DNA of 64,000 nucleotides, taken from Lactiplantibacillus pentosus (GTDB lineage: Bacteria > Bacillota > Bacilli > Lactobacillales > Lactobacillaceae). The stretch lies in contig NZ_CP032757.1 in the NCBI RefSeq assembly GCF_003641185.1, forward strand, positions 1,736,001 through 1,800,000. The letters run 5' to 3'. How positions within the stretch are numbered: position 1 is the first letter of the stretch; every line of letters begins with the position of its first letter. Made by a program: the position numbers and the translations under genes. Below the pieces are notes generated by a model. The model was not told where the DNA came from. It made no database searches and was given only the letters and a program-made list of their open reading frames with translations. This document shows, piece by piece, positions 8,029-37,983 of the stretch.

Positions 8029-8345
8029 GTTCCAAATTAAAAGTTCGCCTGAAGGACCAGTTACCTAATATTCAGTGGTGAATTGTACCCGGATGGGTGG
8101 CTGTTCATCCGCTATTCGAGCGGCTTCCCGACTGTAGGAGCCGGCTGACAATGCTCAGTAGCCAAATTATTCTTAGCTGGAAGTGGTCTGCTGCGGCTTA
8201 GAATAAGACTCGTATTTGAAATTGCGCAGTGGGTTTCTGCGTGAGTTCAAATCGATGTCGGCTTACGTTCCAGCAATTGTCAGCCGGCCCCGGAAGTCGG
8301 AATAAGGAGATTGCCAGCTGACGAACAGGAATCCACCAACTGGCA
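8029..8345 (+). repeat. Structured intergenic repeat, copy A (about 317 bp)
   Basis: This segment matches the reverse complement of 21484-21799 almost throughout, from a GCCTGAAGGACCAG block near its start to GAACAGGAATCCACCAACTGGC at its end. It can fold. The arm 8128-8155 pairs with 8272-8300, with a central GCCGGCTGACAAT/ATTGTCAGCCGGC. This encloses hairpin 1 (TTATTCTTAGC/GCTTAGAATAA, 8167-8206) and hairpin 2 (ATTTGAA..GCGCAG/CTGCGT..TTCAAAT, about 8213-8252). Differences from copy B keep the pairing (for example CCGG/CCGG becomes CTGG/CCAG). No reading frame is conserved. The remaining 7843-8028 and 8346-8568 show no gene. Confidence 0.85.
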
Positions 8346-9484: not shown

Positions 9485-9928
9485 ATGAGTGTGTTAGAAG
9501 CAAGCGAAATTATGCAATTAATTCCTAACCGGTATCCGATTTTATTCATGGACCGGGTGGACGAACTAAATCCGGGTGAATCAATTGTGGTGACGAAGAA
9601 TGCCACCATCAACGAGTCCTTTTTTCAAGGGCACTTTCCTGGCAACCCGGTGATGCCGGGAGTGCTGATTATTGAAGCCCTGGCACAGGCAGCCTCGATT
9701 CTGATTTTGAAGTCTGAAAAATTTGCGGGCAAGACTGCCTATCTTGGCGCAATCAAAGACGCCAAGTTTCGTAAAATCGTACGGCCCGGCGATGTCTTGA
9801 AGTTGCACGTCCAGATGGTCAAGCAGCGTTCGAATATGGGCACCGTCAGCTGTCAGGCGATGGTCGGCGATAAAGCCGCCTGCACGACAGACTTAACGTT
9901 TATCGTTAGTCCCACTGATTCAAAATAG
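9485..9928 (+). CDS. fabZ: 3-hydroxyacyl-ACP dehydratase FabZ (first copy)
   Basis: A 147-residue hot-dog enzyme that dehydrates 3-hydroxyacyl-ACP in the elongation cycle. The active-site segment FFQGHFPGNPVMPGVLIIEALAQ (in two parts: FFQGHFPGNP, VMPGVLIIEALAQ) gives catalytic His50 and Glu64. The ATG has AAAGGAGCG at good spacing. It is the first gene of the fatty-acid operon. No fabA or fabM is visible here, so in related lactobacilli the isomerase step for unsaturated fatty acids has been attributed to a FabN-like FabZ. Whether this copy has that activity cannot be read from sequence alone. Confidence 0.96.
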   Translation: MSVLEASEIMQLIPNRYPILFMDRVDELNPGESIVVTKNATINESFFQGHFPGNPVMPGVLIIEALAQAASILILKSEKFAGKTAYLGAIKDAKFRKIVRPGDVLKLHVQMVKQRSNMGTVSCQAMVGDKAACTTDLTFIVSPTDSK

Positions 9929-9999
9929 AAAGGTGGTAACTGCAATTCGGCAAGCGCGTTTGGGAGATTTTGATCGATGCCGATTGTATCTAACTAACC

Positions 10000-10986
10000 A
10001 TGACAAACAATTTTTCAATTCAAGCAACCGCCAAAGCTGTACCGCATACTGAAATTTACAATCAGGACCTGACATCTCTGATGGCAACTTCGGATGAGTG
10101 GATTCAGCAACGGACCGGTATCAAGGCCCGCCATGTTGCAGCCACTGAAACGACGACCAGTTTAGCTGTAGATGTTGCCCAGCAGCTGTTGCAGCAAAGT
10201 CAGCTCGCGGCAACGAGCATCGATTTAATTATTGTGGCGACCATGTCTCCGGATTTTTTGACACCGGCGACGGCACCTCAAGTGCAAGCAGCGATTGGCG
10301 CGACCAATGCGATTGCCTTTGACATTAATGTGGCCTGTGCCGGTTTTGTCTACGGCATGCAGCTGGTTCATCAATATTTACAGCCCAGTCAGCATGCCTT
10401 GCTTATCGGTAGTGAGACATTGAGTCACTTGGTCGATTGGCACGACCGTCGTACCGCCGTTTTGTTCGGCGATGGTGCGGGTGGCATGCTGATTGCCGCG
10501 GATTCGGATGCCCCAACCGGTCATTGGCTGGGCAGTCACTACGCCACGTTTGGTGCGGATGGCCACTATTTAACTGCGGGACAACAGCCGCGATTGAATC
10601 CCTGGTCGACCGACACAGCCGCCAAGCCAACCAATCAGTGGGCGTTTCAAATGAACGGTCGCCGGGTGTATGACTTTGCGACTAAGCAAGTGCCGCGATC
10701 TATCGAACAAGCGTTGACAGTAGCCAAACTGCAGGCAAATGAGGTGCAATCATTTATCCTACATCAAGCCAATGCGCGCATCGTGGCCAGTGTTGGCAAG
10801 ACGTTACATCTAAATACCGAACAATTACCCGTTAACATTGCCCAGTATGGCAATACCGCAGCCGCCAGCGAACCGATTTTATTTGCTGAGTTGGTGGCAC
10901 AACACCAAATTCAACGGGGCGACAAACTAGTATTCACCGGCTTTGGCGGCGGCTTATCCGTCGGTAGTGCCGTGATTGAATATTAA
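10000..10986 (+). CDS. fabH: 3-oxoacyl-ACP synthase III (KAS III)
   Basis: A 328-residue thiolase-fold enzyme that condenses acetyl-CoA (or another acyl-CoA) with malonyl-ACP to start chains. The Cys-His-Asn triad is visible: Cys113 in NVACAG, His255 in LHQANAR and Asn285 in YGNTAAAS. The C-terminal GLSVGSAV replaces the more usual GLTWGA. The ATG at 10000 has only a poor upstream ribosome binding site. The 71-bp gap after fabZ, with an unused AAAGGTGG at its start, is longer than other gaps in this operon. An upstream ATG at 9976 is out of play because it meets a stop. Confidence 0.96.
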   Translation: MTNNFSIQATAKAVPHTEIYNQDLTSLMATSDEWIQQRTGIKARHVAATETTTSLAVDVAQQLLQQSQLAATSIDLIIVATMSPDFLTPATAPQVQAAIGATNAIAFDINVACAGFVYGMQLVHQYLQPSQHALLIGSETLSHLVDWHDRRTAVLFGDGAGGMLIAADSDAPTGHWLGSHYATFGADGHYLTAGQQPRLNPWSTDTAAKPTNQWAFQMNGRRVYDFATKQVPRSIEQALTVAKLQANEVQSFILHQANARIVASVGKTLHLNTEQLPVNIAQYGNTAAASEPILFAELVAQHQIQRGDKLVFTGFGGGLSVGSAVIEY

Positions 10987-11034
10987 CTGAAGACAACACG
11001 AATATTATTCTAAAAACTCTGGAGGAACAGACTA

Positions 11035-11283
11035 ATGACTAAAACTGAAATTTTTGACCAAATTAAAAAGATGATTGTTGAACAACTGGACGTGGATGCT
11101 GACAAGATTACGATGACGACCAACTTCACGGAAGATTTGGCGCTCGATAGTCTGGATGTCTTTGAAGTGATCGACAAGATCGAAGACGAATATGATATCG
11201 AAATTGAAACGGATTATGCCTTAGCGACCGTTGGTGATTTGGTTGATTACGTCGCTAGCCACCAGGAAGCAAGCGAGGATTAA
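11035..11283 (+). CDS. acpP: Acyl carrier protein
   Basis: An acidic 82-residue four-helix protein that carries growing acyl chains on 4'-phosphopantetheine. The attachment serine is Ser39 in LALDSLDVFEVIDKIEDEY, the conserved DSL motif at the start of helix II. It has a strong GGAGGAACAGACTA binding site. It sits between fabH and fabD, and the PPTase at the operon end could convert it to the holo form. Confidence 0.97.
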   Translation: MTKTEIFDQIKKMIVEQLDVDADKITMTTNFTEDLALDSLDVFEVIDKIEDEYDIEIETDYALATVGDLVDYVASHQEASED

Positions 11284-11286
11284 ATC

Positions 11287-12216
11287 ATGAAGCTGGCAAT
11301 CTTATTCAGTGGGCAGGGGCAACAGTTCGCTGATATGGGACAAGACCTTTATCAAGCGCTGCCAGCCTATCAAAAGACGATTGATGCGGCCAATCAGGAA
11401 CTGGACTGGGATTTACGGATCACCGATGATTGGTTAGACGATAACCAGCGTGGCCCGGTTGCCATTACGGCGATGAATATGGCCCTTTATCAAGCCTTAA
11501 CACCCCTAGTTGGTTGCCCGACCGCGCTAGTTGGCTTAAGCTTGGGCGAATATGCTGCACTAATGGCAGCGGGGACGTTATCGTTTACAGATGGCCTCAA
11601 ACTGGTGGCTGACCGTGCGCGTTACATGCAACGGGCCGGATTACAACAGCCGGGTGCAATGGTGGCGGCGTTAAAAGTCACACCTGCACTGGTAGCGGCT
11701 GCTTGTCAGCGTGCTAGCACGGTCGGAGCGGCCTACCCAGCCAATTATAATTTAGCTGATCAGATCGTGATTGGAGGTGACGCGGCGGGAATCAAGGCGG
11801 TCACCGCTGATCTGCACGACCACGGGATCAAACGGGTCGTGCCGTTAGACGTCGCGGTTGCGTCTCATACGCCATTAATGGCTAGTGCCAGTGAAGCGTT
11901 GGCGTACCGGTTACGCTATACGACCGTGGCAGCACCACAGATTCCAGTCATCAGTAACACCACCGTGGCACCGTTTAGTCAGGCGACGGTCAAGGAAACC
12001 TTAGTCAAACAGCTCATCACGCCAACGCATTTTGCAGCCTGTTTGGAACGGCTGACGGCCTATGACATTGATGGCGTGGTTCAAGTCGGGCCGGGACACA
12101 ATCTGGCCAAATTCGCCAAGCAAACGCTACCGAACGTCCGGGTATGGTCCATTGAAGATGTTGATGATTGGCAGACGTTTAAGCAAGATATCGAGGAGGT
12201 AAGTGAACGTGGATGA
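11287..12216 (+). CDS. fabD: Malonyl-CoA:ACP transacylase
   Basis: A 309-residue alpha/beta hydrolase-like transferase that moves malonyl from CoA to ACP. The N-terminal GQGQQ (oxyanion loop), catalytic Ser85 in GLSLGEYAA, a conserved Arg near residue 112 and His194 in VASHTPLM are all present. The start codon is 3 bp after the acpP stop. The end overlaps fabG, as in other fab operons. Confidence 0.96.
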   Translation: MKLAILFSGQGQQFADMGQDLYQALPAYQKTIDAANQELDWDLRITDDWLDDNQRGPVAITAMNMALYQALTPLVGCPTALVGLSLGEYAALMAAGTLSFTDGLKLVADRARYMQRAGLQQPGAMVAALKVTPALVAAACQRASTVGAAYPANYNLADQIVIGGDAAGIKAVTADLHDHGIKRVVPLDVAVASHTPLMASASEALAYRLRYTTVAAPQIPVISNTTVAPFSQATVKETLVKQLITPTHFAACLERLTAYDIDGVVQVGPGHNLAKFAKQTLPNVRVWSIEDVDDWQTFKQDIEEVSERG

Positions 12217-12931
12217 AGTGATTATCGTGACGGGCGCGGCAAAGGGCATCGGCCTGGCGACGGTCAAACGATTAGCCGCGCAAGGCGCTCGTGTCGTGCT
12301 GAATGTCCATCATGAAATTGACGCGGAAGCTTGGCAAGCCTTGACGGCGACCTATCCGCAACTGGTTCAATTAGTGGGAGATGTCAGTGATGAATCCTCC
12401 GCGGCCGAGTTAGTTGAAACGGTCATGACAAATTTTGGCCGTATCGATGGGTTAGTCAATAACGCTGGCATTACTCATGACCAATTATTGACCCGGATGC
12501 ACGTTGAAGATTTTAAACAGGTGTTGGAGACAAATCTGATTGGGACGTTTAACATGACGAAACATGTGCTCAAAGTGATGCAACGCCAACGGCAAGGAGC
12601 CATCGTCAATGTTGCCAGCGTTGTCGGCTTACACGGTAACATTGGACAAGCCAATTACGCAGCTAGCAAGGCCGGCATTATCGGTTTAACCAAGACGACC
12701 GCCAAGGAAGCCGCTCGCCGCCAAGTGCGCTGTAATGCGGTGGCGCCGGGCATGATTGAAACGGCGATGACCGCACAACTGAACGAGCGTGTCAGGACGG
12801 CAGCTTTAAGCGGTATTCCACTGCAGCGCTTTGGCACTCCTGATGAGATTGCTCAAGCGATTGACTTTTTATTACACCAACCGTATTTGACCGGACAAGT
12901 TTTGACGGTCGATGGCGGAATGACGATATAG
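12209..12931 (+). CDS. fabG: 3-oxoacyl-ACP reductase
   Basis: A 240-residue short-chain dehydrogenase that reduces 3-oxoacyl-ACP with NADPH. The cofactor motif TGAAKGIG is at residues 8-15, NNAG near 84-87, and the catalytic Ser137, Tyr150 and Lys154 lie in NVASVVGLHGNIGQA and NYAASK. Two GTG starts are possible, 12203 and 12209. The second is preferred because GAGGAGGT (12193-12200) is 8 bp upstream of it but only 2 bp from the first. It overlaps the end of fabD. Confidence 0.95.
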   Translation: MDEVIIVTGAAKGIGLATVKRLAAQGARVVLNVHHEIDAEAWQALTATYPQLVQLVGDVSDESSAAELVETVMTNFGRIDGLVNNAGITHDQLLTRMHVEDFKQVLETNLIGTFNMTKHVLKVMQRQRQGAIVNVASVVGLHGNIGQANYAASKAGIIGLTKTTAKEAARRQVRCNAVAPGMIETAMTAQLNERVRTAALSGIPLQRFGTPDEIAQAIDFLLHQPYLTGQVLTVDGGMTI

Positions 12932-12948
12932 ACATGGGAGGGTAACCA

Positions 12949-14181
12949 ATGACAGAACGAGTAGTGGTGACTGGGATGGGTGCGGTGACGCCCCTCGGTA
13001 ACGATGTTGACACTTTTTTGGCGAATTTATTTGCGGGAAGACTTGGCATTGGACCGATTACCAAGTTCGATGCGACGGCAACAGGAATCAGTGTTGCCGG
13101 TGAAGTAGATGATTTTCAGCCAGAAAAACGGATCGAAAAGAAATTGGCAAAACGCCTAGATTTATTCTCAATTTATGGCTTATACAGTGCCAGTGAAGCA
13201 ATGGCTCAAGCGGGTCTGGATGAAACGACGATTGACCCCGAACGGTTAGGTGTGATTTATGGTTCCGGTATTGGTGGTTTGACGACGATTGAAGCGCAAG
13301 TGATCAAGATGCACGACAAGAGCCCCAAACGGGTTTCACCGTTATTTGTGCCGAATTCGATCATTAATATGGTTGTCGGTAACATCGCCATGCAGTTCAA
13401 TGCGCAGAACACCAGTCAGGCGATCGTCACGGCCTGTGCTTCGGCCACCAACGCGATTGGTGATGCGTTTGAATATTTACGCCAAGGAAAAGCTGACGTG
13501 ATGATTACCGGTGGTGCAGAAGCGTCAGTCAACGAAATCGGTATTGCGGGCTTTGCCGCGTTGACCGCGTTATCCAAAGCCACTGATCCGACGAAAGCGT
13601 CGTTGCCATTTGACACAGACCGCAATGGCTTTGTGATGGGTGAAGGTGCCGCCAGCTTAGTCTTAGAAACGCTGACGCATGCTCAAGCGCGTGGTGCCAA
13701 AATTCTCGGTGAAGTTGTCGGTTATGGGACGACCAGTGATGCTTACCATATGACTGCACCACGGCCAGATGGTGCGGGTGCCAAACGTGCTATGCAGCAA
13801 GCCATTCAAGAAGCGGGCATTCAACCTGAAGATGTCGGCTACATCAACGCACATGGCACCGCGACCCACGCCAATGATAGTGCTGAAGCCCAAGCAATTG
13901 CCGAACTATTTGGTGAAGAAACCCCTGTCAGCAGTACCAAAGGGATGACCGGACACTTGTTAGGCGCTGCCGGTGCGATCGAAGCGGTCGCGACGATTGG
14001 TGCCTTACAAGCGGGACAGTTACCGCCCAATGTCGGGTGTACGACGCCAGATCCTGACTGTCCAGTAAACTTGGTCTCGCCCGCGACCCAGCAACAGGCT
14101 GCCACCTATGCATTGAGTAATTCATTTGGCTTTGGCGGTCACAATGCCGTCGTTGCCTTTAAAAAGTGGGTGAGCGCATGA
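12949..14181 (+). CDS. fabF: 3-oxoacyl-ACP synthase II (KAS II)
   Basis: A 410-residue condensing enzyme for chain elongation. The Cys-His-His triad is Cys163 (TACASATNAIGDA), His302 (AHGTATHANDSAEAQ) and His336 (TGHLLGAAGAIE), with the conserved Lys331. The C-terminal NSFGFGGHNA loop is intact. The binding site GGGAGGGTAACCA is strong. The stop TGA overlaps the ATG of accB, which implies translational coupling to the carboxylase genes. Confidence 0.97.
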   Translation: MTERVVVTGMGAVTPLGNDVDTFLANLFAGRLGIGPITKFDATATGISVAGEVDDFQPEKRIEKKLAKRLDLFSIYGLYSASEAMAQAGLDETTIDPERLGVIYGSGIGGLTTIEAQVIKMHDKSPKRVSPLFVPNSIINMVVGNIAMQFNAQNTSQAIVTACASATNAIGDAFEYLRQGKADVMITGGAEASVNEIGIAGFAALTALSKATDPTKASLPFDTDRNGFVMGEGAASLVLETLTHAQARGAKILGEVVGYGTTSDAYHMTAPRPDGAGAKRAMQQAIQEAGIQPEDVGYINAHGTATHANDSAEAQAIAELFGEETPVSSTKGMTGHLLGAAGAIEAVATIGALQAGQLPPNVGCTTPDPDCPVNLVSPATQQQAATYALSNSFGFGGHNAVVAFKKWVSA

Positions 14182-14642
14182 GTATGACGGATACGGAAGC
14201 CATGACCGCACTGATCGACCAGTTCAACCAGTCTAGTGCGCAAGTCATGGATGTCAAGACGAGCGGGTTTGAATTACATCTGAACAAACAAGCGGTCCTT
14301 ACCCAGCCGATATCAGCGAGTGACCAGCCTCAAGCGACTAATGCGGCTGAACCAGCACCAGGATCCCCATCGACACCTGCGGCCACTCGTTCATCAGCGA
14401 CCATGGTAACGGCGCCGCTAGTCGGAGTGGCGTATTTAGCCGCGGAACCTAAGGCGGAACCATTCGTTCAGGTCGGCACGCACGTCAAGGCTGGCGAAAC
14501 GCTGTGTGTCATTGAAGCGATGAAGATGATCAATGAAGTGCCGAGCCCAGTTAGTGGGACGGTCAAGGAAGTTCTGGTCAAGAACGCGGCGATGGTCGAG
14601 TTTGATGAGCCACTATTTGCGATTGAGGAGACGAAAGCCTAA
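14178..14642 (+). CDS. accB: Biotin carboxyl carrier protein of acetyl-CoA carboxylase
   Basis: A 154-residue carrier that shuttles carboxybiotin between AccC and AccD/AccA. The C-terminal biotinyl domain has the EAMKM motif, with the biotinylated lysine at Lys116. An Ala/Pro/Ser-rich flexible linker (residues about 45-75) separates it from the N-terminal part. Start ATG 14178 overlaps the fabF stop as ATGA. An upstream in-frame GTG (14166) lies inside fabF and is less likely. Confidence 0.95.
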   Translation: MSMTDTEAMTALIDQFNQSSAQVMDVKTSGFELHLNKQAVLTQPISASDQPQATNAAEPAPGSPSTPAATRSSATMVTAPLVGVAYLAAEPKAEPFVQVGTHVKAGETLCVIEAMKMINEVPSPVSGTVKEVLVKNAAMVEFDEPLFAIEETKA

Positions 14643-15055
14643 TGGAAGTGACTAGTTTAATTCCGCAACGGTATCCGGTGCAACTCTTGGATCGTATCGT
14701 TAGCGTCGAGCCAGGGGTCGGTGCAACCGCCGAGAAATTAGTGACCATTAATGAATGGTTTTTCCAAAGTCCAACGCTGACAGGGCGGACGATGATGCGG
14801 CCACTGTTGCTAGAGATTTTAGCGCAAACGGGGGTCGTCGCCTTGCTATCGATTCCTGAGCATCACCGACAAAACGTCTTCTTCGGTGGGATTCGACAGG
14901 CTGATTTTAAGGCGGATGTTCACCCTGGGGACCGCTTAGAATCAACCGTCACCCTGACGAAGTTTCGGCGTCAAATTGGCACTGGCCATGGGATGATCAC
15001 TTGCGCGGGTCATGAAGTCGTCAGTGCGGATTTGACCTTTGTGATTCAGACTTAA
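14642..15055 (+). CDS. FabZ-like dehydratase homologue lacking the catalytic histidine
   Basis: A 137-residue hot-dog protein clearly related to FabZ: SLIPQRYPVQLLDR at the start, GGIRQADFKADVHPGDRL in the middle, and ADLTFVIQT at the end. The active-site block is changed. Where FabZ has FFQGHFPGNPVMPGVLIIE, this has FFQSPTLTGRTMMRPLLLE at the same length, so the catalytic His is replaced by Pro44 while Glu58 stays. It may be a non-catalytic partner, bind acyl-ACP, or catalyse another step. The start overlaps the accB stop (TAATG). This position between accB and accC is where active fabZ sits in streptococci, so it is probably the ancestral fabZ after loss of activity, or a specialised form. 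Confidence 0.9.
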   Translation: MEVTSLIPQRYPVQLLDRIVSVEPGVGATAEKLVTINEWFFQSPTLTGRTMMRPLLLEILAQTGVVALLSIPEHHRQNVFFGGIRQADFKADVHPGDRLESTVTLTKFRRQIGTGHGMITCAGHEVVSADLTFVIQT

Positions 15056-15069
15056 GGGAGGTCAGAGGA

Positions 15070-16458
15070 TTGTTTGAAAAAGTATTAGTAGCCAATCGGG
15101 GCGAAATTGCGGTGCAGATTATTCGTGCGTTGCATGAAGTCGGCAGTCAAGCCGTCGCCGTCTATTCGGTGGCCGACCAAGAGAGTCTATTTGTTCGACT
15201 CGCCGACGAAGCCGTTTGTATCGGTGATGGCCCGGTCAATCAGTCTTATTTGAACATGCAGGCCGTAATCAGTGCTGCCAATCTGACAGGCTGTCAAGCC
15301 GTTCATCCGGGCTACGGTTTCTTGTCTGAGAACGCCGCGTTCGCCCAACTATGTGCGGATTGCCAGTTAACCTTTATCGGACCTAGTCCAGCAGTAATCG
15401 ACCAAATGGGTGACAAGGAAAATGCCCGCCAGACAATGCAACGATTGGGTGTGCCAGTCATTCCAGGCAGTCAAGCGGTACTGGAAAATGTCGACGCTGC
15501 CTTAAAATCGGCGCATGAGTTGGGCTATCCGGTCATGATTAAGGCTGCCGCGGGTGGTGGCGGTAAGGGCATTCGAGCCGTCAACGATGATCAGGCGCTA
15601 GCACGTGCATTTCAGACCGCTCAACAGGAAGCACAGGCGTCATACGATGATCAACGGCTGTACCTCGAAAAGATTATTGTCCCTGCCAAACATATTGAAG
15701 TGCAAGTCTTGGCAGACCAACAGGGGCACGTCGTTTATTTACCCGAGCGAGATTGTTCGCTACAACGTAATCATCAAAAAGTCATGGAAGAAACGCCATG
15801 TCAGGTGATGACCAGTGCCGAACGATTGGAACTAGGCCAGTTAGTGGCGGATGCAACCAAAAAGTTGGGTTATACAAATACGGGGACTTATGAGTTTTTG
15901 ATGGATCAGCAGCACCACTTTTATTTTTTGGAAATGAACACGCGATTGCAAGTTGAACATACGGTCACTGAAATGGTGACGGGGATTGAGCTAATTAAGG
16001 CCCAGCTTACGATTGCGGCGGGAGAACCATTGCCATTTGCGCAAGCCGATATACACGTTCAGGGTACCGCGCTTGAATGCCGTCTGAACGCGGAAGATCC
16101 ACAGCACGACTTCCGGCCACAACCAGGTCGAATTGAACAACTGATTTATCCGATAGGCACGTTGGGGGTGCGCATTGATGCCGGTGTGGTTGCGGGGAGC
16201 TTGATTGCACCGTTTTATGATTCGATGATCGCTAAAGTAATTGTCCATAGCAATCAGCGCCAGACGACGCTTAACAAGATGCGGCGGTGCCTGGATGAAT
16301 TGATGCTGACTGGCGTTCAAACCAATCAGGACTTTTTAGCCGCATTGCTAAATACAAAAGCGGTGGCAGACGGTACTTATACGACAACGTACATTGAACA
16401 AGATTTTTTGAAGGGGTGGTTAAACGATGCCCAAGCGCAAGTTTCAAGCGCCAACTGA
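15070..16458 (+). CDS. accC: Biotin carboxylase subunit of acetyl-CoA carboxylase
   Basis: A 462-residue ATP-grasp enzyme that carboxylates biotin on AccB. It begins with the typical VLVANRGEIAVQIIRA, has the glycine-rich ATP loop AAAGGGGKGIR near residues 160-170, the biotin-carboxylase motif FLEMNTRLQVEHTVTE near 288-303, and the C-terminal RLNAEDP. The start is TTG (15070), supported by GGGAGGTCAGAGGA and by alignment of MFEKVLVANRGEIA with the family N-terminus. It overlaps accD by 32 bp. Confidence 0.96.
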   Translation: MFEKVLVANRGEIAVQIIRALHEVGSQAVAVYSVADQESLFVRLADEAVCIGDGPVNQSYLNMQAVISAANLTGCQAVHPGYGFLSENAAFAQLCADCQLTFIGPSPAVIDQMGDKENARQTMQRLGVPVIPGSQAVLENVDAALKSAHELGYPVMIKAAAGGGGKGIRAVNDDQALARAFQTAQQEAQASYDDQRLYLEKIIVPAKHIEVQVLADQQGHVVYLPERDCSLQRNHQKVMEETPCQVMTSAERLELGQLVADATKKLGYTNTGTYEFLMDQQHHFYFLEMNTRLQVEHTVTEMVTGIELIKAQLTIAAGEPLPFAQADIHVQGTALECRLNAEDPQHDFRPQPGRIEQLIYPIGTLGVRIDAGVVAGSLIAPFYDSMIAKVIVHSNQRQTTLNKMRRCLDELMLTGVQTNQDFLAALLNTKAVADGTYTTTYIEQDFLKGWLNDAQAQVSSAN

Positions 16459-17269
16459 GCAACAACTCGCGGTTCGACGGGATTACATTCCGGATGCGCT
16501 ATTAACTCGTTGTCCAGTTTGTCATCAAGATTGCTATACACAAGATTTAGGCGAGTTCAAGGCTTGCCCACATTGTGACTACGGATTCCGACTCCCAGCA
16601 TGGGAACGGGTGGCGCAGTTGACGGATGCTTTTGACGAGCACGATGCGGACTTGCGTGCACCAGCTGATTTTACGGACGCAGCTTATCAGGACAAATTAA
16701 GACGGGCAGCCGCTCAGTCGCAGATGAATGAAAGCGTCTTGACTGGGATTGCGGCCACTGACGGCATGCAATTTGGATTAGGGGTCATGGATACCAATTT
16801 TATGATGGGCAGTTTAGGGTCCGCCACTGGGGAGAAAATCACCCGTTTGTTCGATACTTGTACGATACAAAAGCTTCCGGTCGTGATGGTGACGGCCTCT
16901 GGTGGGGCACGGATGCAAGAAGGCACCCGGGCACTGATGCAGATGGCAAAAATATCTGCGGCAGTGGCTAAACACCGTGAAACCGGGTTATTGTATATCA
17001 CAATCTTAACTGATCCAACCACAGGTGGTGTGACCGCAAGTTTTGCGATGCAAGGTGATATTATGCTGAGCGAGCCACGGGCCTTGATTGGATTTGCCGG
17101 GCGTCGCGTCATCGAACAAACCATTCAACAGACGCCACCCGCAGATTTTCAACGGGCAGAAACGTTGTTTGCGAATGGTTGGTTGGACCAAATTGTGCCG
17201 CGACCGGCCTTGAAACAAACGTTACAACGATTATTGCGGCTCACACAAGGAGGTCGTCAAAATGGCTGA
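16427..17269 (+). CDS. accD: Acetyl-CoA carboxylase carboxyltransferase beta subunit
   Basis: A 280-residue subunit that, with AccA, transfers CO2 from carboxybiotin to acetyl-CoA. The N-terminal zinc ribbon is Cys29-X2-Cys32-X14-Cys47-X2-Cys50. The crotonase-like core has ASGGARMQEGT and TDPTTGGVTASFAMQGD. The ATG is preceded by AAGGGGTGG and lies inside accC. The gene ends 8 bp inside accA. Confidence 0.96.
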   Translation: MPKRKFQAPTEQQLAVRRDYIPDALLTRCPVCHQDCYTQDLGEFKACPHCDYGFRLPAWERVAQLTDAFDEHDADLRAPADFTDAAYQDKLRRAAAQSQMNESVLTGIAATDGMQFGLGVMDTNFMMGSLGSATGEKITRLFDTCTIQKLPVVMVTASGGARMQEGTRALMQMAKISAAVAKHRETGLLYITILTDPTTGGVTASFAMQGDIMLSEPRALIGFAGRRVIEQTIQQTPPADFQRAETLFANGWLDQIVPRPALKQTLQRLLRLTQGGRQNG

Positions 17270-18032
17270 TACCACTGCTTATGAACAAGTTCAGGCGGCA
17301 CGGTCCACTGACAAAATTAGTATTGAAGCGTTGATCGATGGCCTAACGGAAGACTTTTTTGCTTGTCATGGGGATCGCCAACGCGCGGATGATCCGGCGG
17401 TGATTGTCGGACTAGCGACGATTGCTGAACGCCCCGTTACCATTATTGGCATTCAGAAAGGGCAAACGTTAGCCGAAAACCAGGCGCGCCACTTTGGTTG
17501 TGCAACACCTAGCGGCTATCGTAAAGCACTGCGGTTGATGCAACAAGCAGAAACATTACAGCAACCAGTCGTCACGTTGATCAATACGCCCGGCGCTTAT
17601 CCGGGGGTGGATGCTGAATATCAGGGCCAAGGTCGTGCAATTGCCGACTGTTTGTTAGCTGGTATTCAGTTAAAAGTGCCCTTTTTAAGTCTCATCGTTG
17701 GTGAAGGCGGTAGCGGTGGCGCACTCGCCTTGGCGTGTGGCGACCAAGTCTGGATGCTAGCGAAAAGTACTTATTCGGTGCTCTCACCGGAAGGCTACGC
17801 CACTATTTTATGGAAGCAATCACAACGTGCGGCAGAAGCGGCGGAAAAAATGCGACTCACACCGACGGAATTATTAGCAGACGGCGTGATTGACCGGATT
17901 ATCCCGGAAGTCGCAACGGCCGCTGATTGCCAGCCGCTTAAAGCCGCAATCGACGAAACACTAACTGCTTTAGCAGCCAAGCCGGTGACAGAACTCGTGG
18001 CACAACGCCAGGCCCGTTATCGACAATTTTAA
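17262..18032 (+). CDS. accA: Acetyl-CoA carboxylase carboxyltransferase alpha subunit
   Basis: A 256-residue crotonase-fold partner of AccD. Family features are the FACHGDRQRADDPAVIVGLA segment (here FFACHGDRQRADDPA) near residue 29, the central LINTPGAYPGVDAE, and GEGGSGGALAL, which forms the oxyanion pocket. It is shorter than the E. coli subunit, as is usual in lactobacilli. The start overlaps the end of accD, and AAGGAGGTCGTC precedes it. It completes the AccBCDA set of one enzyme in this operon. Confidence 0.96.
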   Translation: MADTTAYEQVQAARSTDKISIEALIDGLTEDFFACHGDRQRADDPAVIVGLATIAERPVTIIGIQKGQTLAENQARHFGCATPSGYRKALRLMQQAETLQQPVVTLINTPGAYPGVDAEYQGQGRAIADCLLAGIQLKVPFLSLIVGEGGSGGALALACGDQVWMLAKSTYSVLSPEGYATILWKQSQRAAEAAEKMRLTPTELLADGVIDRIIPEVATAADCQPLKAAIDETLTALAAKPVTELVAQRQARYRQF

Positions 18033-18053
18033 ATAAGTAAGGAATGATGAGTG

Positions 18054-18812
18054 ATGGACGGAATTTTATCAGGCAAGACCATTGTGGTGATGGGCGTTGC
18101 CAACCAGCGTAGTATTGCCTGGGGGTGTACCGAGGCATTGATGGCTCAGGGTGCGCAAGTTATCTTGACCTATCAAAATGACCGTTTGAAGCAAAGTTTA
18201 CAGCGATTCGTCGCACCCGAAGTGCCGCTGATTGCCTGTGACGTTGCCGATGACGATAATGTTGACCAAGCGTTTGCAACGATCAAACAGCAATATGGTG
18301 CCCTGGATGGGATTATCCATGCGATTGCCTATGCCGATAAAGCGACACTGGAAGGTGATTTTGTCGATACGACTAAGGCTGGCTATGATTTAGCTCAAAA
18401 TATTAGTGCCTATTCGCTGATTGCAATTGCCAGAGCAGTGCGACCAATGCTCAAACCAGGTGCCAGTCTCGTGACATTGACGTATTTCGGATCAGAACGG
18501 GCCGTGCCGAATTATAATATGATGGGTGTCGCGAAGGCTGCCCTCGAAGCGAATGTCCGCTACTTAGCCCGTGACTTGGGCCCGCAGCAGATTCGTGTCA
18601 ATGCCATTTCAGCTGGGGCAGTCAAAACACTGGCCGTAACTGGTATCCACGAGCATCAGCAATTATTGAAATTATCTCGAAGTATGACAGTGGATGGCGA
18701 ACCAGTTAAAACGCGTGAAATTGGCAATGTGGCCGCCTTTTTACTCAGTGACCTGTCGACTGGGATGACCGGCGATGTGGTCTACGTAGATAAAGGGGTT
18801 CACTTGAGTTAA
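18054..18812 (+). CDS. fabI: Enoyl-ACP reductase (NADH), FabI type
   Basis: A 252-residue short-chain dehydrogenase that performs the last reduction of each elongation cycle. The divergent cofactor loop GVANQRSIAWG at residues 14-24 and the catalytic Tyr154-X6-Lys161 (YNMMGVAK) mark FabI rather than FabK or FabL. The ATG at 18054 is 10 bp after AAGGA; GTG 18051 is an alternative. No fabK is present in the cluster, so this is likely the main enoyl reductase here and a possible target of triclosan-type inhibitors. Confidence 0.95.
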   Translation: MDGILSGKTIVVMGVANQRSIAWGCTEALMAQGAQVILTYQNDRLKQSLQRFVAPEVPLIACDVADDDNVDQAFATIKQQYGALDGIIHAIAYADKATLEGDFVDTTKAGYDLAQNISAYSLIAIARAVRPMLKPGASLVTLTYFGSERAVPNYNMMGVAKAALEANVRYLARDLGPQQIRVNAISAGAVKTLAVTGIHEHQQLLKLSRSMTVDGEPVKTREIGNVAAFLLSDLSTGMTGDVVYVDKGVHLS

Positions 18813-19369
18813 TGGTCATGACGCAGGTCCGCTTTGCACAGCAGTGGCTGGATTTACCAGCGGATGCTTCCAGACAAACGCGCAGGGAAACACAACGGTT
18901 GGTGAGTCGCTCGTTGATTCAACAATTACTGCCAGCACCACTTGCTTATCGCCGTTTGGGTCAGCCGTATTTTCCGAGTCAACCGAAGTTAGGAGTCAGT
19001 GTCAGTCATACGGCCCAGTTCGTCCTAGTGGCATTGGGCCCAGGTCCGCTCGGGATTGATGTGGAACAGGTGCGACCACGGGATTTTACGGCAATTCAAC
19101 GCGCGTTTACGTCCGCAGAGTGGCGCTTGCTACAGGCCCAACCCAAATTAGCTCGGCAGCGTATAGGCTGGCAACTGTGGACGGCTAAGGAAGCGGTCTT
19201 GAAGCTGGTTGGTTGTGGCTTAACGCAGGCCCCACGCCGGGTTGAAGTGCTAGATTTAAAGCAAGGTGTTGTGCGGTATCAATCCCAGTTATATCGTTTA
19301 CGACCATTGGCCTTGCCAGCGATGTATGTCGGCTGGGTCGCACAACCAATGCGTGATGGCCGAGATTAG
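18812..19369 (+). CDS. Sfp-type 4'-phosphopantetheinyl transferase
   Basis: A 185-residue enzyme that transfers phosphopantetheine from CoA to a carrier protein serine. The two magnesium and CoA motifs of the Sfp family are visible: GIDVEQ (Asp83, Glu85) and WTAKEAVLK (Trp123, Lys126, Glu127, Lys131). It is larger than AcpS (about 120 aa) and a little shorter than Sfp itself (about 224). The start overlaps the fabI stop (TAATG), so it is the last gene of the operon, and the operon ACP is its obvious substrate. AcpS, if present, lies outside the window. Confidence 0.9.
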   Translation: MVMTQVRFAQQWLDLPADASRQTRRETQRLVSRSLIQQLLPAPLAYRRLGQPYFPSQPKLGVSVSHTAQFVLVALGPGPLGIDVEQVRPRDFTAIQRAFTSAEWRLLQAQPKLARQRIGWQLWTAKEAVLKLVGCGLTQAPRRVEVLDLKQGVVRYQSQLYRLRPLALPAMYVGWVAQPMRDGRD

Positions 19370-21290: not shown

Positions 21291-21483
21291 TGTGACGCAT
21301 CATTTGACTCATATAATCGTGTCGGCTGCCGCGATGAGCAGGTCACTAGATTCGTTGCTTCAGAACTTCGGGTTCACCACTGTTAGCACAGATTTAGTGG
21401 CCCACATCCGTGAAAATTCGATATAATTACATTAATAAGAACGCAGTGTGCTAGTTAATTTGTCATGAATTATGATTAAATCA

Positions 21484-21799
21484 TGCCAGTTGGTGGATTC
21501 CTGTTCGTCAGCCGGTGCGCGCCTTAGTCCGACCTCCGGAGCTGGCTGACAACGCTGGAACAGGGCGGACATCGATTTGAACTCACGCAGAAATCCACTG
21601 CGCAATTTCAAATACGAGTCTTCTTCTAGCCCGAGAGACCCACCCGGACAAGAAGAATTTCGCCCTTGAGCATTGTCAGCCAGCCCCTACAGTCGGGAAC
21701 CCGCTCGAATGGCAGATGAACGGCCACCTATCTAGGTACAATTGACTACTGAATATTAGATGGCTGGTCCTTCAGGCAAACTTTTAGTTGGTATCGATA
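21484..21799 (-). repeat. Structured intergenic repeat, copy B (inverted relative to copy A)
   Basis: This is the reverse complement of the element at 8029-8345. The long arms are 21529-21555 and 21669-21696, pairing through AGCTGGCTGACAACGCT and AGCATTGTCAGCCAGC. Inner hairpins are CGCAG/CTGCG (about 21585-21605), extended by TTTGAA/TTCAAA, and TTCTTCT/AGAAGAA (about 21620-21657). In hairpin 1 most bases differ from copy A while pairing is kept. It lies in a 1.26-kb gap (21291-22552) without a supported gene. Confidence 0.85.
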
Positions 21800-22109
21800 A
21801 AGACTTATAGCATTTAATTATTGAGACGATTGCCTGAATATTAGTTACTCATCTCAATGCCACAAATTTCAATGGCAACTAGCCAAATTAGTCGATAAAA
21901 ATGCCGCCGCTTAAAGTTCAAGACTTTGTTATCTCAGACGACTAGCAAAAGTCCTGACAAGTTCAATAAATCCGTGTGTCTGAAGCATTAAAACATGGGT
22001 AAGAAAGTTTAGCAATTGTTAGCAAACTGTCTGACACTTAAATATCAAGATGACCGTGTACAATGGAACCAACGACTAATCATACAAAAGGTTGGGTTCG
22101 CACAAGTCT

Positions 22110-22400
22110 GCCTTTCGAATACCATCCCGGCTGGAAGGTATTCTGGGCAAGGCCAAGTGCTTTTAGAGTGTGAGGTTCAGACGGGTTGGGACTGAGGATT
22201 AGCCTAGCTAGAGCGTTAAGCGGCGAACTTCCGCTTGGCGTTCTGGCGTAGCTAACCGGAAGTCCCAGTCTGACCCGAACACGTTTCGGCTATATTGCAT
22301 AGAACACGAAAGACCAGTATTTAAGACGTGGGTTGTCGGCTTAAATCTGTGTCCACCACGTTTCGGCCATTGCCCAGAATGCCTGGAAGCCGGCGTAGGA
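22110..22400. other. Non-coding region with very long-range base pairing
   Basis: The arm 22127-22154 (CCGGCT, GGAA, GGTATTCTGGGCAA, GGCC) pairs with 22365-22393 (GGCCATTGCCCAGAATGCC, TGGA, AGCCGG). Only a small internal loop and one bulge interrupt it. About 210 nt are enclosed, and these hold a second long stem (GGGACT/AGTCCC plus TCAGAC/GTCTGA, 22177-22273), TTAGC/GCTAA and AGCGG/CCGCT. A short minus-strand frame (22208-22435) overlaps it but has no ribosome binding site and looks like a by-product of the symmetry. The layout resembles the repeat at 21484-21799, although the sequence is different. Confidence 0.6.
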
Positions 22401-22552
22401 CGTTTCCACAACAGCAAGTTTACGCTAAGTCGCATTTTTTCCAGCAGGTCTCAGCTGGCAGCACTTGAACTTAGAAATTGTCATGATTTAACCATGTGAC
22501 AATTTAACTAGCACAATGCGTTAATAAGATTAATTACAAATGAGGTGCACAG

Positions 22553-23053
22553 ATGGAAGCGATGCGAATATCAGAAACATTATCAATTAGCAATCACCGG
22601 GTCTTTTCAGCTGACCTGAACGAACATGATACCGTCTTTGGGGGCAAAATTCTGGCGACAATCGATGATAATTCATCGATTGCGGCGTCGCGGGTCGCCA
22701 GAATTGAAACGGTGACGGTCTCAGTCGACCAGGTCAACTTTTTATTGCCGTTTCGTTTGCAGGATTCGATGTGTGCCGAATCCTATGTCTCTGGCGTTGG
22801 TCACCGGTCAATTGAGGTCTTCACCAAAATTATCGGTGAACACTTAAAGACCGGCGAGCGCTTTTTAGGACTGACGTGTTTTTCAACGTTTGTCGTTACC
22901 GACCGTAATGTCGTTTTGCCGGACTTGACTGCTGACAAACCAGAGTATGCTTATGTGGCGGATGGCTATCAGGAGCGGCAAGCACAACGGTTGGCGAAAT
23001 TAAAACGGCAACGCGCATTCAATGCCCATATCAGCGTTGAATTGCCTTGGTAA
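22553..23053 (+). CDS. Acyl-CoA thioesterase, hot-dog fold (YkhA/BACH type)
   Basis: A 166-residue single hot-dog protein that hydrolyses acyl-CoA. The family signature is visible: NEHDTVFGGKILATIDDNSSIAA (in parts NEHDTVFGGKIL and ATIDDNSSIAA) at about residues 23-45, followed by VDQVNFLLPFRLQD. The C-terminal helix is charged (QERQAQRLAKLKRQR). The ATG has GAGGTG 5 bp upstream; ATG 22562 is an alternative. It is a stand-alone gene after a long non-coding stretch. The next gene has its own promoter. Confidence 0.88.
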   Translation: MEAMRISETLSISNHRVFSADLNEHDTVFGGKILATIDDNSSIAASRVARIETVTVSVDQVNFLLPFRLQDSMCAESYVSGVGHRSIEVFTKIIGEHLKTGERFLGLTCFSTFVVTDRNVVLPDLTADKPEYAYVADGYQERQAQRLAKLKRQRAFNAHISVELPW

Positions 23054-37898: not shown

Positions 37899-37983
37899 CT
37901 GTTCGTCTGCTGGTTGTACGTCGGACACCGACTATGGGGTCAGCCGACAACGCAAAACGCGTCTGACATCGATTTGAACTCAG
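37899..37983 (-). repeat. Partial, degenerate copy C of the structured intergenic repeat
   Basis: This has the same orientation as copy B. It shares CTGTTCGTC, then GTCAGCCGACAACGC in place of GGCTGGCTGACAACGC, and GACATCGATTTGAACTCA, in the same order and similar spacing. The second half of the element is missing. It shows that the element is dispersed in this genome and decays in place. Confidence 0.6.

Follow-up and report, generated by a model that had tools for sequence, protein, structure and literature searches.

The window, a 64,000-nt stretch of Lactiplantibacillus pentosus DNA, contained two related non-coding sequences, copy A at 8029-8345 on the plus strand and copy B at 21484-21799 on the minus strand, both located exactly where the original prediction had placed them. 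Their likeness was real, with 83.9% identity across 311 nt, and neither was covered by a gene of annotated size. Between them lay a run of open reading frames (9485-19369) that resembled, by eye, a type II fatty-acid synthesis cluster. The 317-nt match had been taken for a whole unit present in two copies. Neither point held: the match was the right arm, or half, of a longer element, and at least 125 right-arm copies were located in the same genome. The features of the two copies are listed below, with D1 and D2 denoting the structured domain D in the left and right arms, R1 a covariance model built from 53 copies of this genome, and R2 a covariance model built from a cross-genus alignment.

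7868 (approximate)..8391, plus strand: copy A, truncated; half of the spacer, right arm and right terminal repeat, no left arm
8112..8310, plus strand: copy A right-arm domain D2, subtype II; R1 201.2 bits, R2 152.6 bits
8338..8391, plus strand: copy A right terminal inverted repeat
21433..21440, no strand: copy B 8-bp target duplication TAATAAGA, first; single copy at the empty site of the sister genome G016
21441..22521, minus strand: copy B, whole element, 1081 bp, tips ACGCATTGTGCTAGTTA / TTAACTAGCACACTGCGT; empty site in the sister genome G016
21441..21491, minus strand: copy B right terminal inverted repeat; matches inverted consensus 63-115
21519..21712, minus strand (folded strand, outward): copy B right-arm domain D2, subtype I; R1 226.6 bits, R2 169.7 bits
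22214..22403, plus strand (outward): copy B left-arm domain D1, degenerate; R1 no match, R2 36.6 bits, E 4.5e-8 (weak)
22476..22521, minus strand: copy B left terminal inverted repeat; matches inverted consensus 979-1035
22522..22529, no strand: copy B 8-bp target duplication TAATAAGA, second

The target duplication of copy B can also be read as 9 bp with the preceding T. A further segment of the window, 37899-37982, showed weak similarity to consensus positions 884-968 (73%, E 3e-5) and had no covariance-model support.

When the copies were aligned with long flanks, the shared sequence extended about 620-720 nt upstream and 360 nt downstream, counted from where copy A starts, and the full element was a non-coding unit of 0.8-1.1 kb with imperfect terminal inverted repeats. 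In the consensus, built from the 104 copies scoring at least 300 bits (5 of the 109 copies in this genome fell below this score and were left out), these repeats were ACGCRTTGTGCTAGTTA...TAACTAGCACAAYGCGT. Six-frame translation of the consensus gave no long frame and hence no coding capacity, as is expected of a MITE. The terminal inverted repeats, also a MITE character, were matched by their tips 69 times at no more than one mismatch, against 0 for the reversed-pattern control. With up to three mismatches, a word search for the motif gave at least 71 + 80 matches in this genome, the reversed control giving 10 + 2. The DNA search (BLAST) and the word search together defined 109 distinct places; the figure of at least 125 right arms comprised 109 found by BLAST (104 at 300 bits or more) and 16 high-scoring covariance-model places. 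The covariance-model total of at least 121 matches was not used as a copy count because it may include left arms. The 125 located right arms were divided between the plus strand (60) and the minus strand (65), and the chromosomal strand bias suggested by a first pattern listing was rejected. With genes predicted mechanically, 1 of 107 copies had an open reading frame of more than 150 aa that overlapped its right arm.

Exact 8-bp flanking duplications, the target-site duplications characteristic of MITEs, were found in 8 of the 39 testable copies of this genome (shuffled mean 0.18, maximum 2 in 1000), the test being confined to copies with both tips at no more than four mismatches, which left out 70 of 109. 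In the sister genome G016 they were found in 2 of 13 testable copies against 0.16 in shuffled data, after 28 of 41 copies without both tips were left out. The remaining 31 of the 39 testable copies had no exact 8-bp duplication, which counts against the explanation preferred below. No terminal duplication had been visible in the original prediction; this was correct within its narrow boundaries, but the true ends, at which a minority of copies bear 8-bp duplications, lie further out and were missed for that reason. The empty-site check was positive, since the copy B site was empty in the sister species G016 with one target copy left. Copy A was present at the same locus in G016 (L248) but inverted between its ends, as if by recombination between its terminal repeats. 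At least 7 of the 41 G016 copies, and 2 more by one flank, occupied sites in common with 107 copies of the L. pentosus genome. Pieces of the element occurred on 26 plasmid records (19 from Lactiplantibacillus and 7 from Ligilactobacillus), none with 80% of the query at a single site; two Ligilactobacillus salivarius plasmids (L115, L116) carried, beside ABC-transporter genes, incomplete elements with about 85-88% identity to copy B. Three loci (L371, L372, L378) were deletion derivatives in which the terminal repeats were kept and the core of one or both arms was lost. A phage origin was rejected, since phage records gave no match; four exact motif matches were seen in viral contigs. The element is a mobile, non-autonomous element of Lactiplantibacillus.

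Each arm of the element contained one D domain of about 190 nt, the left arm being an inverted relative of the right arm, with both domains facing outward. The fold of D consisted of an outer stem, an internal loop, a long stem, a conserved internal loop GCUCA.../...GUUCCAGC, and a three-way junction with two hairpins. R1 matched both arms. Copies A and B each folded better than 100 of 100 dinucleotide shuffles (z -4.1 and -5.8), in agreement with the predicted branched structure. The opposite strand of copy A also folded strongly (z -7.6), which counts against a reading as RNA, and folding energy alone therefore cannot pick the strand. The compensatory changes described between the two copies were present: columns 36-182 of A2, the alignment of 53 copies from this genome, held U-G in 22 copies, C-G in 15, U-A in 14 and C-A in 2. 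Hairpin 1 had been described as largely rewritten; the difference is real, but it reflects a split into two subtypes, with 68 copies of subtype I, 39 of subtype II and 2 unclassified among the 109 copies.

The covariation was much wider in the cross-genus alignment of 102 sequences (100 distinct), where two-sided compensatory change was found at 62 of the 65 pairs. Standard pairs filled 96.1% of 6014 cells compared with 65.8% after shuffling, and the covariation score was 0.696 compared with 0.181; on any measure, 0 of 500 shuffles reached the observed value. Fitting to a model of this same structure tilts the alignment towards it, but sliding the partners by 1-3 columns reduced the score to 0.082 or less. 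In this genome alone, two-sided change occurred at 13 of 65 pairs, mostly marking the two subtypes. The selection on base pairing proposed in the original prediction, at the level of RNA or single-strand DNA, is strongly supported by the number of covarying pairs, the paired fraction and the shuffles, and comparison of the sequences argues strongly that the D fold is kept by it. Both hairpin loops of the right arm were mostly 7 nt long with the form TGNNNTT, the centre being variable while the rest of the domain was nearly invariant; the general form of the 7-nt loop was (U/C)GNNN(U/C)(U/G). The variable centre could be a read-out, specificity or recognition site.

G-U and A-C pairs were counted as an indicator of the folded strand. 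In the Watson-Crick-dominated pairs of A2, G-U occupied 62 cells (16 pairs) and A-C 10 cells (9 pairs); five pairs were dominated by G-U and none by A-C. The cross-genus alignment (A4) gave 216 G-U against 64 A-C cells (46 and 24 pairs). In structures predicted for each arm in the outward orientation, the ratio of G-U to A-C was 679:25 for the right arm (105 copies) and 94:17 for the left arm (60 copies). When G-U was forbidden in the prediction, which removes such columns, the contrast was weak (15:11 in the right arm and 24:13 in the left arm), and this counts against the strand assignment. The excess of G-U over A-C makes the outward strand of each arm, on balance, the likely folding strand, as RNA or single-stranded DNA.

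D extended well beyond this species. R1 matched 18 of 21 genomes of the genus and, under stricter filters, 58 of 301 Lactobacillaceae genomes belonging to 11 of 40 genera. Across the order, R2 matched 25 of 395 genomes; 24 belonged to this family, and the other was a weak match outside it (E 1.9e-6). Across the class it matched 1 of 398 genomes, which was the L. pentosus genome itself. Among the matches listed by an exact motif scan were Lactiplantibacillus, Lacticaseibacillus, Levilactobacillus, Companilactobacillus, Lapidilactobacillus, Schleiferilactobacillus, Secundilactobacillus and Limosilactobacillus. The scan also matched 16 unrelated taxa among the 80 loci listed, and D matched in 0 of these 16.

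D neighbours less than 1 kb apart formed outward pairs in 38 of 39 cases, with gaps of -5 to 800 nt, which is the inverted pairing known from REP/BIME elements. The count used 110 of 122 D matches from named loci; the 12 left out were truncated or weak, and two of these lie next to a counted pair, where including them would have introduced neighbours on the same strand. In Lapidilactobacillus, whole pairs were homologous within the genome (80-93%), so in this genus as well the pair is mobile as one unit; the ends were fixed in 7 of the 8 copies examined, and no inverted repeats or duplications were seen by eye. In Levilactobacillus namurensis, the similarity ended near the outer stem of D. Since the ends in these two genera differ, D travels in different outer contexts. 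The element thus carries two inverted, outward-facing domains of about 190 nt that belong to one structured nucleic-acid family across Lactobacillaceae.

Within the element, D was the best conserved part. Mean pairwise identity among the copies of this genome was 0.887 for D2, 0.812 for D1, 0.616 for the spacer, and 0.575 and 0.583 for the terminal repeats, the terminal-repeat figures being lowered by poor alignment of decayed ends. At the 6 orthologous sites without a subtype switch, D2 differed at 51 of 1146 positions, the orthologous flanks at 143 of 3145, and the spacer at 411 of 1601. Across all 9 sites shared with G016, two of which had one orthologous flank only, the spacer differed far more than the flanking genes. 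At 3 of the 9 sites the L. pentosus copy was of subtype II and the sister copy of subtype I. Such switches point to frequent exchange of sequence between copies, probably by gene conversion. Conversion could itself homogenise D, so the argument for selection is weakened, not removed.

The position of D relative to neighbouring genes was also biased. The gene beyond the right end was convergent in 66 of 99 copies, so that D2 faced the gene 3' end, and co-directional in 33 of 99 (p = 0.001); genes were predicted mechanically, and 8 of 107 copies not flanked on each side by a predicted gene were left out. The left side divided 50:49, and this absence of a facing bias counts against the explanation preferred below. 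Solo D domains of other genera faced a convergent gene in 23 of 30 cases (p = 0.005), 4 of 34 without a gene on each side having been left out.

The element may be transposed in trans by a putative DDE-type transposase. The 11 regions retrieved around unexplained tip matches contained no transposase-bearing element with the same tips; they were deletion derivatives or lone tips. An IS256-type element was rejected as the partner, since its genes occur on plasmid C2 only and its ends differ. D pairs lying 2-5 kb apart in G144 and G287 were considered as autonomous elements and rejected as well, because they enclose ordinary genes, including a D-Ala-D-Ala ligase-like frame annotated by eye, and not transposases. 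A spacer promoter driving outward RNAs was likewise rejected: a promoter match of 9/12 was reached upstream of D2 in 56 of 109 copies compared with 53 antisense, and upstream of D1 in 31 compared with 43 antisense, so that neither arm showed enrichment, which also counts against the explanation preferred below, and some pairs have no spacer (gaps down to -5).

Rfam 15 gave no match at gathering score across the window and none up to E 10 over 21400-22560, and no paper on the element was found in the open-access literature searched, a scope outside which most subscription journals lie; within Rfam 15 and that literature, the original statement that the sequence belongs to no known family holds. 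TnpB/IscB omega RNAs, IS110 bridge RNAs and group II introns, which would come with a neighbouring effector gene or an RNA core of their own kind, were covered through Rfam only, where nothing matched. Prokaryotic MITEs such as Coxiella QMITE2, RUP and CIR, as described in the passages of PMC10969869 on such elements, share with it the lack of coding capacity, the terminal inverted repeats, short target duplications, a mostly intergenic position and a high copy number. The present element differs from those described there in its greater length (0.8-1.1 kb), in two internal covarying domains that outlast the terminal repeats in conservation, and in that no parent IS with the same ends was found among the regions examined. 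MRSC-65-2, in the main text of PMC11109978, is similarly a structured motif with dozens of copies per genome and no consistent gene association; it has a UYCCGG repeat, the comparison with D being by description only, and the words "lactobac" and "plantarum" are absent from that main text. The stem-loop repeat families of 40 bacterial genomes (PMC2267715, PMC1590033) are also dispersed, intergenic and folding, some as double hairpins; "plantarum" is absent from both texts, and L. johnsonii is the sole lactobacillus in the species tables shown. A mobile structured repeat is a known kind of element; what is new is the paired three-way-junction domain with cross-genus covariation, and the D family is possibly a new RNA class.

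The mobility, the covariation, the pair arrangement, the G-U excess, the constraint in place, the differing ends and the placement at gene 3' ends are best explained together if D functions as an RNA within transcripts that exit the element on either side, a reading of the sequence comparisons to which we give an even chance. Transcripts would run through the element and exit either way with D folded as RNA, and the inverted outward pair would ensure that, whichever strand is transcribed, a D in the right orientation stands at the exit. D would then bind a protein or shape the 3' region of the transcript, by insulation, processing or stability. Its action would make insertions tolerable or useful, and D would stay intact after insertion while the spacer and ends decay. 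A more novel proposal, that D is a new Lactobacillaceae-specific class of functional RNA, travelling in outward pairs within several otherwise unrelated kinds of mobile elements and binding a dedicated partner, is put forward tentatively and may well prove wrong. D is probably not simply a transposase site, because its fold is kept although the outer ends of the elements vary from genus to genus.

The main rival is that D is a mobility structure, in which a trans-acting enzyme would recognise, at each of the two element ends, the folded single strand, be it lagging-strand DNA or the RNA of an intermediate; we consider this possible but rather doubtful. It is modelled by analogy on the Y1 enzymes: REP/BIME elements, whose unit is a short hairpin, are mobilised by RAYT (Y1) transposases. 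The present element resembles REP/BIME in its inverted pairs of structured units, its intergenic position and its location near gene 3' ends, and both the invariance of the inverted outward pairing and the preference for gene 3' ends are as this rival would have it; D pairs are moreover what the mobile families seen in the genera compared have in common. Y1 transposases were found in 90 of 301 family genomes and were somewhat commoner in D-positive (25 of 58) than in D-negative genomes (65 of 243, p = 0.017), but the D-rich genomes G144, G287, G258 and G015 had no Y1 match (0 of 4 at E<=1e-5), and membership of the RAYT/BIME system was rejected on this ground. Unlike REP/BIME, the unit is about 190 nt with a three-way junction, and the Lactiplantibacillus element has terminal repeats and duplications. 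The distance from D to the element end also differs between genera, and D remains conserved even where the terminal repeats of a copy have decayed. Terminal repeats lacking the D core exist in the three deletion derivatives, a point against the rival that is tempered in that these may not have moved since D was lost.

If the element were an ordinary MITE and D an internal relic, the apparent structural conservation would result from recent spread and gene conversion and not from function. Mobility and conversion are both supported, and the two-sided pairs of the L. pentosus genome, mostly separating two subtypes, amount to few events. The cross-genus covariation already disfavours this reading, as does the far better conservation of D than of the terminal repeats and spacer in the same copies, and we regard it as very improbable. 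Scarcely more probable is that D has been adopted by the host, its copies having a chromosomal or regulatory role, for example as dispersed protein-binding sites. Consistent with adoption, D and the orthologous flanks change at about the same slow rate where sites are shared, and its copies number well over a hundred per genome; against it stand the patchy distribution among the family genomes, the high turnover of sites between sister species, the plasmid copies and the absence of a chromosome-wide strand bias.

A much-used food bacterium thus carries at least 125 right arms in its genome of an element whose domain was detected in 11 of 40 sampled genera of Lactobacillaceae and, in the sources searched, apparently has no name or Rfam entry. 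Its mobility can be tested directly by way of the inverted-pair rule, the plasmid copies and the missing transposase. Should D act as RNA, a single domain could affect many transcripts together, and insertion turnover among closely related species would then generate regulatory variation between strains.
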